Source: Colwellia sp. M166
Lineage (GTDB): Bacteria > Pseudomonadota > Gammaproteobacteria > Enterobacterales > Alteromonadaceae
Length of the DNA: 64,000 nucleotides
Direction: 5' to 3'
Assembly (NCBI RefSeq): GCF_024585285.1
Contig: NZ_CP040755.1
Span: 1,302,001 to 1,366,000, forward strand
The position numbers were made by a program, and so were the translations under genes. Each line of letters begins with the position of its first letter. The stretch's first letter is position 1. The notes beneath the pieces were generated by a model. The model was given only the letters and a program-made list of their open reading frames with translations. It made no database searches and was not told the DNA's origin. Below, piece after piece: positions 47,975-56,386 of the stretch.

Positions 47975-47997
47975 TTAATATTTACCACGTTGGATAA

Positions 47998-48145
47998 ACA
48001 CGCTCCTGCGCATCCATGCGCTCGCGATACTGCCTACAGTGACACAGGTACCTAGTTTTTTTCGGGAACAAAAAATGGCCGTTCATCCTGAACATACACG
48101 CTCCTGCGCATCCATGCGCTCGCGATATACCGTTCATCCTGAACA
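47998..48145. repeat. 51-bp tandem element, locus C (one unit interrupted)
   Basis: The intact unit is 48088-48138 (CTGAACAT to ATACCGTTCATC), with hairpin GCGCAT-CC-ATGCGC. The copy before it (from about 47998) shares the same hairpin region, but about 47 bp of unrelated sequence (about 48030-48078, with a GACACAGGTACC stretch and T-run/A-run) is inserted before its final CCGTTCATC. CTGAACAT at 48139 opens a third. The hairpin differs from locus A by two complementary pair changes. Directly before the terminator at 48147, between convergent lpxH and a DUF885 gene. Confidence 0.88.
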
Positions 48146-48146
48146 T

Positions 48147-48178
48147 AAAAATGCCTAAACTTTCGTTTAGGCATTTTT
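48147..48178. terminator. Bidirectional terminator lpxH / DUF885 gene
   Basis: AAAAATGCCTAAAC, loop TTTC, GTTTAGGCATTTTT: a 14-pair stem symmetric enough to work in both directions. Confidence 0.9.
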
Positions 48179-51435: not shown

Positions 51436-52662
51436 TTATTGCCTATCCGCTAGCTGAAAAATTAACGATGTATTCAAACCACCAAAAGCAAATGAATTAC
51501 TCATCACATGCGATAAATTAGCGTTTACTTTACTATTAACAACAAGATTAATATTACACAGAGGATCTTTTTCATCAAAATTACAGGTTGCAGGTGCTGT
51601 TTGTTTTCTTAATGCAAGTATTGCTGCTATTGACTCTAAAGCAGCACCAGCACCAAGCATATGCCCGTGAGTGCCTTTAGTTGAAGAAACAAGTGGTGCT
51701 ATACCGCTATCCTTAAACACCGACAATATGGCTTCAGATTCCGTTTTATCATTCTGTATTGTGCCAGAGCCATGCGCATTAATATAGCCAATGTCAGCGG
51801 CATTCAGCCCTGCATCACTTATCGCGGCAGCCATAGCAGATTCTGCACCCTCGGCTAACGGCTGAACAATATTGTAAGCATCAGAACTCATGCCAATGCC
51901 AACTAGCTTGGCGTATAAGGTGGCACCACGATTTTTAGCCGTACTTTCGCGTTCTAAAATTAAGCTAGCGGCTCCTTCTCCCATCACTAAGCCACTACGG
52001 TTTTTTGAAAAAGGTCGACAAGCATCATTAGATAATACACGTAAGCCGTTCCAAGCATAAAAGTTACCCTTACTAAGACATGCTTCAGCACCGCCGACAA
52101 TGGCATAATCGATTAAGTGGCTACGTAGCATTAAAACAGCCATAGCAATGGCATGACCTGAAGATGAGCATGCAGAGGAAGTAGCAAAGGTTGGTCCTTT
52201 AATACCGTATTTCATCGCGATATGCGCAGTCGCCGAACTGGGTAAAAGCTTAGGTACTGTAAAAGGGTGAGTTCTCGATTTACCTTGTTCGAATAGCTCA
52301 GCGTAAGCATGCTCAATAGTTTCTTGCCCGCCAATACTGGTGCCATGCACAACACTGCTTCGTTGTTGGTTGCTAGCGTCAAACACTAAATTAGCATCTT
52401 TTATTGCTTGCTCTGCTGAGATCAAAGCAAATTGTGCATAACGGTCTAAGAGCTTCAGTTCTTTTTTAGTAAAATAGTCATTCGCGGCATAATCTTTTAC
52501 CTGCGCAGCAAGAAAGGAAATGTTTTCATCGGGTTTTAAAATATTTGTTGTACTAATACAGCTACTTAATGAGGGCTGAAATATACTTGATGAAAATTCA
52601 GCGACATTTTTACCCGCAGCGGAAATACAGCCCATACCACTGACGACAATAGCATCAGACAT
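51436..52662 (-). CDS. Beta-ketoacyl-ACP synthase, FabF/KAS II-like
   Basis: A 408-residue thiolase-fold condensing enzyme. Catalytic Cys165 in ATSSACSSSGHA, His297 in INAHGSGTIQND and His334 in STKGTHGHMLGAG make up the Cys-His-His site of elongating KAS enzymes. It overlaps the end of the ACP gene by eight bases (ATGTCTGA) with AGG upstream, so the ATG 52662 (MSDAIVVSGMG) is the start; the longer ORF to 52713 is not. As last gene of the exosortase/Lnt-like/ACP operon it probably works on the dedicated ACP rather than in housekeeping fatty acid synthesis; no reductases or dehydratase are nearby. Confidence 0.93.
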   Translation of the reverse strand: MSDAIVVSGMGCISAAGKNVAEFSSSIFQPSLSSCISTTNILKPDENISFLAAQVKDYAANDYFTKKELKLLDRYAQFALISAEQAIKDANLVFDASNQQRSSVVHGTSIGGQETIEHAYAELFEQGKSRTHPFTVPKLLPSSATAHIAMKYGIKGPTFATSSACSSSGHAIAMAVLMLRSHLIDYAIVGGAEACLSKGNFYAWNGLRVLSNDACRPFSKNRSGLVMGEGAASLILERESTAKNRGATLYAKLVGIGMSSDAYNIVQPLAEGAESAMAAAISDAGLNAADIGYINAHGSGTIQNDKTESEAILSVFKDSGIAPLVSSTKGTHGHMLGAGAALESIAAILALRKQTAPATCNFDEKDPLCNINLVVNSKVNANLSHVMSNSFAFGGLNTSLIFQLADRQ

Positions 52663-52921
52663 TTTCTTGCCTTTCTTTAACCAATATTTTAACCAGTGCC
52701 AGTATATCGGCATAGCAGCTTAAAGAGCTTCCTTGAGCATTTAACACACTGTCATCAGGAATTTTAATATCAAATGCTTCTTCAATATCAAAAATAATTT
52801 CAACTGTCGATAATGAATCGATACCTACTTCATCAAGTGTTTGAGCATCAGTAAGACCAGCAAAGTCTTCATCGGTATACTCACTGAATATCGCGTGTAA
52901 TTTCTCTTCAATATTATGCAT
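52655..52921 (-). CDS. Acyl carrier protein (dedicated)
   Basis: An 88-residue acidic acyl carrier protein. The phosphopantetheine attachment site is GIDSLS with Ser36, in the usual position after helix I. Length is slightly above E. coli AcpP. It overlaps the end of the Lnt-like gene by eight bases (ATGCATAA) with AGG upstream, and the KAS gene overlaps its own end by eight bases. Such coupling suggests a fixed ratio of Lnt-like, ACP and KAS products. The presence of a private ACP and KAS suggests a special acyl chain. Confidence 0.93.
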   Translation of the reverse strand: MHNIEEKLHAIFSEYTDEDFAGLTDAQTLDEVGIDSLSTVEIIFDIEEAFDIKIPDDSVLNAQGSSLSCYADILALVKILVKERQENV

Positions 52922-54509
52922 TTATTTGCCTGTTTTTAATGTTGCGATTTCGGACTACTACGACAGCAAAGGCCATAATAATGATGAAAAGCCATTTTAT
53001 AAAGTACGGAAATTGTTGATAAAAACTATTATTAGCAACAATATTTAACGCAGTGACGGAATAACCACGGGTATGCGGCGTAATTTTTGAAGAGACGATT
53101 TGTCGACCATAAGGGTCAATGATAACGCTAATACCGTTATTGGTGTTTCGAATGAGGTTTTTTCGATATTCAACACTACGAAATGTACTTAGCGCTAAAT
53201 GTACACTTTGCCCTGCTGTTTTACCAAACCAAGCATCGTTTGACGAATTAATTAACAGTTCACCACCCGCTTCTACTCCATGGCCAACCGTGTCTGAAAA
53301 TACAGCTTCATAGCAAATAAGTGGGACAAACTTAATGCTCTGTTGTGATAAGGGCAATTCAAATAAGATGTTTGCACTACCTTGCTTATAATTTGGGGCG
53401 TAAGGAAAAACTTTCCTCAACCAAGGTAGGTTAGCTTCAAAGGGTAAATATTCACCAAAAGGCAACAAAACTTGCTTTGCGTATCGTTGCTCAAGCTGAT
53501 TATCAACGACTAACTCCATGGTATTGAAATAACCTTTGCTATCATCTAACGTACCAGCTATTGGTTTAATAGCCGTCAGTAAAAGCTTGGTATTTAGTAG
53601 CGATTTATTCAACAAATCTTTATCAAAGTCAAAATATTGAAATGAGACTGGCACTGGAAGTTCCGGTAGTATCAGTAAATCAACCGCTTCATTTTCAGTG
53701 ATGTTGCGGATCATCGTCATAAGCTCAGGTGCTAACTGCTGCCAATCGTCTCTCGTTCGGTTTTCAATAGAAATATTAGGTTGTACCATAGCAACCTTAA
53801 TTTGCTTACTCGTGGCTATATTAGCCGGATCACTTTGATTTATTTTAAAATATCCATAGCCGTAATTAGCACAAAACACGATGATGGCAAGTAAAAGGCA
53901 AGCGACTTTTTGCTTACTATTTGTCTTGTCTATCGTTATAGCGTTTGCCAATAAAAAGCAAACACTATGAATAATGAAGAAAACTAAAGGTACCCCACCA
54001 ATATCTGCCGCTTGGATAAACATCGGTTTGTTATACAAGCCATGCGCTAAGTTGCCTGGTAATATTTGTGGCGTGTAGTTGACTAAAACCGTAAAATTCA
54101 GTGCCGAGAGCAAAGCCCCAACAACACTTTCTCGACAGTTAAGATAAACATGAAGCCAACAACCTAATGCATATGGCAATGCTGATAAACAACAATACAA
54201 TAAAACAAAGGGAACAATTAAATTTTGTGTACTTGCGGTAATGCTACTTAGGCCAGGAACTACCCACCAAATACTGAAAAACCAACCTAACGTTGCGGCC
54301 AAAAATCCCGTAACAAAGGCTTGACGTCTATCTTGGTTTTTTAATGCCATGCAAACAGGAATAAGGGCAAACCATGCTAGGTTACTGTATCCCTTAGTAG
54401 GAAAGGCTAAATAAAAAAGGCTTACTGTGCTGAGTATTAACAGCAACTCGAGTGACTGTTGCCTAAATTCAGATTTATTCGCTGCCTTAAAATATGCCAG
54501 TACTTGCAT
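52914..54509 (-). CDS. Apolipoprotein N-acyltransferase paralogue
   Basis: A 531-residue inner-membrane protein with several N-terminal TM segments (about 15-240) and a periplasmic nitrilase-type domain (about 240-490), ending in a TM. The Lnt catalytic triad is intact: E283 (LILPELPVP), K345 (RYAKQVLLPFGEYLPFE), C399 (PLICYEAVF). True Lnt acylates the amino terminus of lipoproteins and usually sits near ybeX/miaB; this copy is in an operon with an exosortase, ACP and KAS, so I take it as a specialised paralogue. Start ATG 54509, one base after the small protein stop; the longer ORF starts with TTG at 54539 inside that gene. Confidence 0.88.
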   Translation of the reverse strand: MQVLAYFKAANKSEFRQQSLELLLILSTVSLFYLAFPTKGYSNLAWFALIPVCMALKNQDRRQAFVTGFLAATLGWFFSIWWVVPGLSSITASTQNLIVPFVLLYCCLSALPYALGCWLHVYLNCRESVVGALLSALNFTVLVNYTPQILPGNLAHGLYNKPMFIQAADIGGVPLVFFIIHSVCFLLANAITIDKTNSKQKVACLLLAIIVFCANYGYGYFKINQSDPANIATSKQIKVAMVQPNISIENRTRDDWQQLAPELMTMIRNITENEAVDLLILPELPVPVSFQYFDFDKDLLNKSLLNTKLLLTAIKPIAGTLDDSKGYFNTMELVVDNQLEQRYAKQVLLPFGEYLPFEANLPWLRKVFPYAPNYKQGSANILFELPLSQQSIKFVPLICYEAVFSDTVGHGVEAGGELLINSSNDAWFGKTAGQSVHLALSTFRSVEYRKNLIRNTNNGISVIIDPYGRQIVSSKITPHTRGYSVTALNIVANNSFYQQFPYFIKWLFIIIMAFAVVVVRNRNIKNRQINA

Positions 54510-54510
54510 G

Positions 54511-54693
54511 CTATTTGGGTTTTCGATACCAGAGAGCAATCAAGAGCACAAAAAACAACTGAACTAAGATATGTAAAGAAGGAACACTTGAGCCCCCCGT
54601 TGTTCCACCGCCGCCACCGCCACCGCCGGCAAAAGTGAGCGGTGCAAAAAAAACACAAAAGCAACATAATACGGCTAGAAGAATTTTATTCAT
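54511..54693 (-). CDS. Small Gly-rich protein with sortase-type C-terminus
   Basis: A 60-residue protein, ATG with AGGGA six bases upstream, overlapping the exosortase stop by eight bases. Layout: signal peptide (1-22, ending LTFA), eight glycines (23-30), TTGGSS, VPSL (37-40), one TM (about 41-55) and a basic end YRKPK. This is the tripartite form of exosortase substrates: a short motif, a TM and basic residues. VPSL resembles the IPTL motif of IPTL-CTERM signals rather than PEP-CTERM. If cut at that motif the mature product is only about 15-17 residues, nearly all Gly, Thr and Ser. The Gly codons alternate GGC and GGT, a GC-rich patch in AT-rich DNA. No known homologue is recognised. Confidence 0.75.
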   Translation of the reverse strand: MNKILLAVLCCFCVFFAPLTFAGGGGGGGGTTGGSSVPSLHILVQLFFVLLIALWYRKPK

Positions 54694-55207
54694 GAAGTTC
54701 CCTGTTATTGTTAAACTTTTTTTCTAGAAATAAAAGGACGACTAATCCGGTGATAAAATTAACTATCTGCCAGACATATAAATGGTAAAACTCAAAATTA
54801 TTGTTCGGTAGTCTTATTTCGAAAAATAGATGTGCGATCCTGATCACGTTTTCAATGGACAAAATTATCACAGCAATTGTTATCATTTTCAATGTCTTTA
54901 ACGCAGAACGCGCAAAGCCAATAATAGCAGCGCAGACACTAGCTAAAAGCATTAAACCTGTGCATTCGTTATCAACAATCACATATTGCAAACTAGGTTG
55001 ATGAGTTAAAACATTACCATTAACGGTAAATGATGTGCCTAATGCTGCATGAATTAAAGCAACTGTTTGCGTTAATATACGCTGAATTATTGAACTGGTT
55101 GTTGGTGATGAATGTATCGCTAATACCAAACACTGCAATAGAGTTAATGCGACGATGAATCGAGGAAAAAAAGAAAGTACCGGCGAATAACTAGTTTTAG
55201 AGGGCAT
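54686..55207 (-). CDS. Exosortase/archaeosortase family protein (small, XrtH-like)
   Basis: A 173-residue polytopic inner-membrane protein, about four to five TM segments, with the exosortase catalytic triad: Cys82 in DNECTGL, Arg123 in ENVIRIAHLF and His142 in EFYHLYVW. It would cleave the C-terminal signal of secreted proteins and attach them to a membrane or surface molecule. Its small size is like exosortase H, whose substrates carry IPTLxxWG-type signals, but the assignment is a guess. Its stop overlaps the start of the small Gly-rich protein gene, the probable substrate. ATG 55207 has no good SD. Confidence 0.87.
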   Translation of the reverse strand: MPSKTSYSPVLSFFPRFIVALTLLQCLVLAIHSSPTTSSIIQRILTQTVALIHAALGTSFTVNGNVLTHQPSLQYVIVDNECTGLMLLASVCAAIIGFARSALKTLKMITIAVIILSIENVIRIAHLFFEIRLPNNNFEFYHLYVWQIVNFITGLVVLLFLEKKFNNNRELHE

Positions 55208-55768: not shown

Positions 55769-56386
55769 TTACTTAATTCGACGTGATGCTAATCCGATCA
55801 AACCTAAGCCTAAAATAATAAGCGTTGATGGTTCAGGAACGGTTACCGGTTGATTAGCTGCAGATACTTGTAAGTTATCGAATGAGCTAAAGCCAGCAAT
55901 ATTTCTCAATTGAATTGCATTAACACCGGTCATAGACAGTGCAAAATTTCCTTTACCAAAAAGGTTTAATTGTTCAACTTGATTATTAGCGGCATCTAGA
56001 CTGATAATTTCCCAGCTAGCGATGTCAGTATTGTTGTTATACCAACCCATATCAAGGCCTAAGAAATCAAATGCTTGTCCGGAAATAGCTGATAAGGTAA
56101 AAACGGCTTGAGTATTCCAAGTTTCAAGAAAGCGCCCGTTGGCGCCCCAATCTTTTGCCTCACTACTATTAGAAAAGTTAGCAGACTCATTCAACGTACT
56201 AATCACATTAACGCAATTAGTACAACTAACAGATATTTGAAACCCAGCTTCAAAGTAAATTGGACTAGCTTCAACTCTAAAGTTATTGCCTGGAAGATCA
56301 TCTAAGGTTATTAGTGTCGCGTTTGATACTGTGGTGAATAACAACACACAGGCTAATGCTAGTACTTTAAAAACTGTTTTTTTCAT
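55769..56386 (-). CDS. PEP-CTERM sorting-domain protein
   Basis: A 205-residue secreted protein. An N-terminal signal peptide (ending VSNA) precedes a beta-rich domain with paired cysteines (SVSCTNCVNVI) and sugar-binding-like W/N motifs (WYNNNTDIASWEIISLDAANN), and the C-terminus is a textbook PEP-CTERM: VPEPST at 183-188, a TM and the basic end SRRIK. Such proteins are cut and anchored by exosortases, usually EpsH/XrtA of a polysaccharide cluster. Here the nearest exosortase gene is 560 bp downstream, but it seems matched to a different signal type. Good SD AAAAGGA before ATG 56386. Confidence 0.93.
   Translation of the reverse strand: MKKTVFKVLALACVLLFTTVSNATLITLDDLPGNNFRVEASPIYFEAGFQISVSCTNCVNVISTLNESANFSNSSEAKDWGANGRFLETWNTQAVFTLSAISGQAFDFLGLDMGWYNNNTDIASWEIISLDAANNQVEQLNLFGKGNFALSMTGVNAIQLRNIAGFSSFDNLQVSAANQPVTVPEPSTLIILGLGLIGLASRRIK

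Follow-up and report, generated by a model that had tools for sequence, protein, structure and literature searches.

What would a small exosortase-family enzyme do with one glycine-rich peptide, a second apolipoprotein N-acyltransferase (Lnt), an acyl carrier protein (ACP) and a beta-ketoacyl-ACP synthase (KAS), all encoded side by side? The question is raised by positions 51436-55207 of a 64,000-nucleotide (nt) stretch of Colwellia sp. M166 (contig NZ_CP040755.1), the whole of which is called the window here. Its open reading frame (ORF) list places five head-to-tail genes there on the minus strand, in the order exosortase (Xrt), peptide precursor (Pep), Lnt, ACP and KAS, with junctions of -8 nt (Xrt/Pep, overlapping at 54686-54693), +1 nt (Pep/Lnt), -8 nt (Lnt/ACP, 52914-52921) and -8 nt (ACP/KAS, 52655-52662), so that the gene order, the three 8-nt overlaps and the single 1-nt junction are all as the original prediction from this DNA had them. 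We find that the operon is a real conserved unit, and we read it tentatively, at a probability of roughly 45%, as a dedicated exosortase system in which the peptide would be the sole substrate, processed at its C terminus by Xrt and N-acylated by a private Lnt, with ACP and KAS tuning the acyl chain.

Chance ORFs are ruled out, as the same gene order is kept in other genomes at blastp identities of ~34-81%. Among 196 genomes of the window's family, its own included, an Xrt relative (E <= 0.001) is present in 11; in the ten others it is accompanied by the peptide in all ten, by Lnt in nine and by ACP and KAS in seven. A contig scan of named genomes gave eight loci, five of which coincide with family-set loci, and the three further ones, Colwellia chukchiensis L046, L051 and L052, are all complete. 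Over the 14 distinct loci from Colwellia-type bacteria, Xrt and Pep are found together at every one, Lnt at 13 and ACP plus KAS at 11. The genes do co-occur elsewhere, and the complete set recurs in the same order; it is not invariable, with ACP and KAS missing at three of the 14 loci and Lnt at one. Operon-type Lnt (profile, E <= 1e-60) occurs in 10 of the 196 genomes, which are the 11 Xrt-positive ones minus G101 (hypergeometric 6e-16 by genome and 6e-8 by genus, uncorrected for descent), and the proposed tie between an exosortase and a second, divergent Lnt thus holds in all ten Lnt-positive genomes.

Within the family, the seven genomes sampled from the genus to which the window belongs all lack the operon. 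Beyond the family it was not encountered: a search of the order at E <= 1e-8 gave one positive among 394 genomes, the window's own, and the operon-type Lnt profile at E <= 1e-60 was found across the class in one of 369, again the window's own, and in none of the 368 others. Sixteen other loci found in genomes of the class with the Xrt profile encode no other window protein (blastp E <= 0.01, ~1.5 kb each side, less at contig ends). The distribution is therefore sporadic and, in the genomes searched, confined to one family. In mirror-tree comparisons most of the correlation comes from four closely related Thalassomonas genomes; once pairs of these are left out, r is 0.64 for Xrt-Lnt, 0.42 for Xrt-housekeeping Lnt and only 0.23 for operon Lnt-ACP, a backing that is weak at best.

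Pep (54511-54693, minus strand) is a 60-residue precursor with a signal peptide running to TFA, then Gly8-TTGGSS, VPSL, a transmembrane helix and the basic tail YRKPK. Found beside Xrt at 14 of 14 loci, it keeps a constant plan of signal peptide, Gly run, Gly/Ser/Thr-rich spacer, SVP (SVS at locus L019), transmembrane helix and basic tail, the last with three or four basic residues among the final six. Ala stands at the predicted cut, the Gly run begins at that cut or one residue past it, and the predicted signal peptidase site lies 14-21 residues before SVP at 13 loci (mostly 16-17, 16 in the window), and 19 residues by eye at L019. The 13 aligned peptides match no Pfam family at E <= 0.01, and all their NCBIfam matches are below cut-off. 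In the window genome the peptide profile retrieves its own copy and otherwise only matches at E 0.4 and 5. The genome thus encodes a single significant copy of a conserved, exported, Gly-rich peptide with an exosortase-type tail, in agreement with the original prediction.

Xrt (54686-55207, minus strand) is a small exosortase/archaeosortase-family protein of 173 residues, and its presumed catalytic residues C82, R123 and H142 are invariant across 18 aligned sequences, window included. It passes the general superfamily model TIGR04178 (34.4 bits against a cut-off of 23), falls slightly short of Pfam PF09721 (24.4 against 25.7) and stays below the cut-off of every named NCBIfam subfamily that it matches. 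The best of these is exosortase H (XrtH, TIGR04177; 45 bits, cut-off 86), followed by archaeosortase B (TIGR04144; 37 bits, cut-off 150); eight other Xrts of the group score 32-50 bits against TIGR04177, and XrtX is top-scoring for some relatives. The operon Xrts form a clade separate from six class-level proteins found with the profile (support 100/100), and a cognate-type target of motif, transmembrane helix and basic tail is adjacent at all 14 loci. A plain exosortase H locus was rejected on the sub-cut-off score, the SVPxL motif, the separate clade and the lack of partners at the 16 class-level loci. The Xrt profile found no relative of solved structure, and a model of an Xrt-Pep fusion, its second half of low confidence, gave no PDB match at E <= 0.001.

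The Lnt paralogue (52914-54509, minus strand; 531 residues from the ATG taken as start, with an in-frame TTG at 54539) passes TIGR00546 with 213.3 bits against a cut-off of 132.9. It keeps the Lnt fold, and the E/K/C triad reported earlier, here E283/K345/C399, is invariant in 46 aligned sequences. It is not the sole Lnt of its genome: a separate housekeeping Lnt is present in all ten genomes with the operon type, and in the window genome the housekeeping copy is the higher-scoring one. The operon Lnts form a clade distinct from the housekeeping Lnts, and the canonical Trp after K/R, which we take to be the important W237 of E. coli, is present in 15 of 15 housekeeping Lnts and in none of 13 operon Lnts, where T or S follows an invariant R.

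ACP (52655-52921, minus strand; 88 residues) has its phosphopantetheine site at S36 within GIDSLS and passes PF00550 (36.3 bits against 20.8), while remaining below the NCBIfam TIGR00517 cut-off (40.5 against 70.45). KAS (51436-52662, minus strand; 408 residues from the ATG taken as start, the longest ORF opening at 52713) is a FabF-type enzyme with C165/H297/H334 and K329, scoring 392.5 bits with the FabF/KAS II model TIGR03150, below its cut-off of 493.75. S36 and the C/H/H triad, both named in the original prediction, are invariant in ten operons, window included.

The chemistry, every step of which we infer from sequence, would then run as follows. Sec would export the 60-residue precursor, and signal peptidase I would cut after TFA to leave a free N-terminal Gly run. 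The operon Lnt, re-specialised away from diacylglyceryl-Cys, would take an acyl chain off a phospholipid and place it on the new N-terminal amine. The Xrt cysteine would cut within or near SVPxL, the transmembrane tail being discarded, and Xrt may pass the peptide to a membrane amine acceptor, possibly phosphatidylethanolamine (PE). ACP and KAS, alongside the fatty acid synthase of the cell itself, would bias the cytoplasmic acyl chain, which would reach Lnt by way of phospholipid. What results would be a Gly-rich peptide some 14-21 residues long (16 in the window, where the bare peptide up to SVP has a mass of 1160.5 Da), bearing an N-terminal lipid and a C-terminal group of unspecified kind. 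Lnt uses phospholipid donors on the periplasmic side, and E. coli Lnt structures have reportedly been solved with PE and lyso-PE; because of this choice of donor, a direct transfer of acyl groups from ACP to Lnt is unlikely. An excerpt of PMC7157517 describes artA as adjoining lipid genes in Methanosarcina, with HvPssA and HvPssD involved in the processing and lipid anchoring that depend on ArtA, and on this precedent we take lipid genes next to an enzyme of the sortase type to belong to its chemistry. According to an excerpt of PMC11980579, moreover, the site cut by an enzyme of the exosortase kind may end up carrying a new group.

Locus L019 is an exception that speaks for this scheme. It is the sole locus without Lnt and consists only of Xrt and the peptide, with no ACP or KAS, in a genome that has one Lnt above cut-off. 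Its peptide alone has a lipobox-like Cys that immediately precedes the Gly stretch (LLFSAC followed by GGGGGGG). Such a Cys would be expected if the private Lnt serves N-acylation of the peptide, because a lipobox lets the housekeeping route do so; it is as if the standard lipoprotein route had replaced the private one. By the Xrt tree the state of L019 could be ancestral as well as derived. A match of this peptide to the 'lipo-invert' model NF058595 was not used, as it scores 13.1 bits against a cut-off of 37 and spans only the signal/Cys/Gly region.

Several observations weigh against the dedicated N-acylating system. The lipobox-like Cys comes from a single locus, where the gene starts at TTG, F stands at -3 and the motif is altered to SVS, and the peptides do not agree in the residue that follows the predicted cut (mostly G; S, T, V and perhaps A at some loci). 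The canonical Trp is also missing from 16 of 16 sampled rows of a wider branch of Lnts that includes SAR324 and Smithellaceae, and 29 loci of these broader relatives have no exosortase, ACP or KAS within ~1.5 kb, so that loss of this residue need not mean a new acceptor. The operon Lnts furthermore carry an invariant Trp a few residues further on, which might stand in for the canonical one. Finally, ACP and KAS are missing at L017 and L026 as well as at L019. In the Xrt tree L017 pairs with the complete L018 (98/98) and L026 with the complete L051/L052 (91/96), from which it would follow most simply that ACP and KAS were lost twice while Xrt, Pep and Lnt stayed. The L017 and L026 genomes have no close KAS elsewhere, the best-scoring ones showing 35% and 37% identity, and one partial match 39%, against 64% for the operon KAS of G041. 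With two such losses, the private-lipid part of the original interpretation is accessory and the core does not need it, ACP and KAS being present at 11 of 14 loci; the conserved operon, the exported Gly-rich peptide and the second Lnt stand.

The alternative that survives best, doubtful though it is, takes the Lnt paralogue as a second ordinary lipoprotein N-acyltransferase of other acyl preference, aided by ACP and KAS and acting on genome-encoded lipoproteins, with Xrt and the peptide as a separate two-gene dedicated system on the shared transcript. The Trp-lacking relatives just described fit such an enzyme. In a broader-alignment search of the phylum, 52 of 398 were positive at E <= 1e-60, with 205-276 bits against 739 for the window's own; the 29 loci include one weak match to the peptide profile, at E 6e-5 in a frame of 144 residues (L146). 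What speaks against it is that the operon Lnt never occurs without Xrt in the 196 family genomes, nor at E <= 1e-60 in the 368 other class genomes, and that the canonical Trp is missing in 13 of 13 operon Lnts. As separate observations, the broad branch (P0105-P0131, some of it SAR324 and Smithellaceae) shares several group residues, among them P151, N421 and R449, and the missing Trp with the operon Lnt, and a plasmid search gave 280 records, all below 60% identity (26-28% among the eight matches listed); the one plasmid neighbourhood inspected holds lspA and metal genes and no exosortase.

A second alternative, distinctly unlikely in our view, moves the lipid to the other end: Xrt would couple peptide and aminolipid, and that acceptor lipid, not the peptide N terminus, would be what Lnt with ACP and KAS build or N-acylate. 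Known Lnt acylates N-terminal amines, and it is at the N terminus, by its Cys, that the Lnt-less L019 peptide is altered, though its motif also changes from SVP to SVS. The idea draws its strength from archaeosortase substrates, which get a C-terminal lipid, and from artA adjoining lipid genes (excerpt of PMC7157517), as well as from rhombosortase, which an excerpt of PMC11980579 has 'possibly' attaching phosphatidylethanolamine by transamidation. That the small protein instead assists the exosortase as a membrane subunit or activator, the real targets being the genome's PEP-CTERM proteins, is very improbable: a natural in-frame Xrt-Pep fusion exists (metagenomic P0013, one 237-residue protein, on a contig equal in length to that of an operon-type Lnt, P0069) and 12 PEP-CTERM proteins score above cut-off in the genome, one of them encoded just upstream of the operon, but signal peptide, sorting-type motif, transmembrane helix and basic tail are all present in the peptide itself, and a separate XrtA-like exosortase near a PrsT gene is the expected PEP-CTERM enzyme.

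The dedicated exosortase system also has a bolder form, which we hold to be unlikely as a whole: a poly-Gly lipopeptide trimmed and lipidated at both ends, in which a Cys-independent Lnt would N-acylate Gly as a periplasmic counterpart of N-myristoylation, the exosortase would join the C terminus to a membrane amine, and the operon's own ACP and KAS would choose the chain. What becomes chemically of the substrates of bacterial exosortases is, to our knowledge, a question still to be settled. One exosortase with one processed peptide of ~16 residues and adjacent lipid enzymes would make a product whose full mass is determinable and both of whose ends are readable. If the dedicated system is real, Lnt can be redirected from the lipoprotein cysteine to another amine, and the operon would offer a compact means of attaching lipid to exported peptides and an undescribed way to tag a peptide with lipid in the envelope.

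Each enzyme comes from a known family, and the combination, a variant of dedicated exosortase systems, is one for which we found no published description in the open-licence literature searched, in accord with the earlier remark that no described system has just this set. 'Dedicated system' is meant as in an excerpt of PMC3237569, one enzyme for one target. Such systems (TIGR04178) likewise pair a small multi-helix Cys-Arg-His enzyme with an adjacent single target of motif, transmembrane helix and basic tail; no description of one that includes Lnt, ACP and KAS was found, and the window Xrt lies below the named-subfamily cut-offs. Exosortase H, the top-scoring subfamily, has targets labelled IPTLxxWG-CTERM, whereas the operon motif is SVPxL, and the window Xrt differs from it further in the missed cut-off, the separate clade and the absence of Lnt, ACP and KAS near class-level matches. 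The motif VPXXXP of archaeosortase B, the second-best match, is read in 9 of the 14 operon peptides (VPxxxP, e.g. VPALHP); the window peptide has VPSLHI, and the cut-off of 150 is missed. Compared with Lnt proper (TIGR00546), the operon Lnt keeps fold, triad and the E353/E401 neighbours but is a second copy in a distinct clade without the canonical Trp, beside a peptide that lacks a lipobox Cys at all 13 Lnt loci.

Acyl chemistry has been met around exosortases and ribosomal peptides in other forms. The N-acyl amino acid synthases linked to PEP-CTERM are soluble, belong to another family and make free N-acyl amino acids. Their connection with PEP-CTERM/exosortase systems goes back to Craig et al. 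2011, as cited in excerpts of PMC4897644, PMC11631085 and PMC5539150, and had already tied exosortase systems to acyl-ACP chemistry. They differ from the operon in having neither Lnt nor a dedicated poly-Gly peptide. Lipolanthines, goadvionins and selidamides are ribosomal peptides joined to a fatty acid made with fatty acid synthase or polyketide synthase parts, the pairing proposed for the operon product; their acylation is cytoplasmic and falls to other enzymes, whereas the operon peptide is exported and its proposed acyltransferase is the envelope Lnt. In the open-licence literature we found neither exosortase together with apolipoprotein N-acyltransferase, with or without acyl carrier protein, nor a paper on exosortase H. 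The excerpts returned for exosortase with Colwellia held nothing on this operon, and those for exosortase with acyl carrier protein concerned the N-acyl amino acid synthases or merely cited them.

In its surroundings, the operon is flanked by miaE downstream and by a PEP-CTERM gene (55769-56386) ~560 bp upstream of Xrt, and promoter and terminator scans of the operon gave scores inside the shuffled range. A 64% identical copy of the PEP-CTERM gene lies just upstream of the C. chukchiensis operon (L046, 7178-7798), and none was found beside the operon at the ten other family loci. Its product probably serves as a substrate for the main exosortase of the genome. That enzyme, the XrtA-like exosortase of the window genome (L027, G000:C1:2103500-2123400), scores 191.9 bits with TIGR02602 against a cut-off of 105.55, stays below that of the XrtA model (171.5 against 208) and lies near PrsT and glycosyltransferase-like genes. 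Just downstream of the C. chukchiensis operon (L046, 12017-14638), a 555-residue frame that is serine recombinase-like by eye stands between a short miaE fragment and full miaE, an arrangement that resembles the insertion of an element into this site. Elsewhere in the window, short intergenic ORFs at 47982-48174 contain, by eye, repeated FRMNG/YVQDER segments, which suggests a small intergenic DNA repeat.
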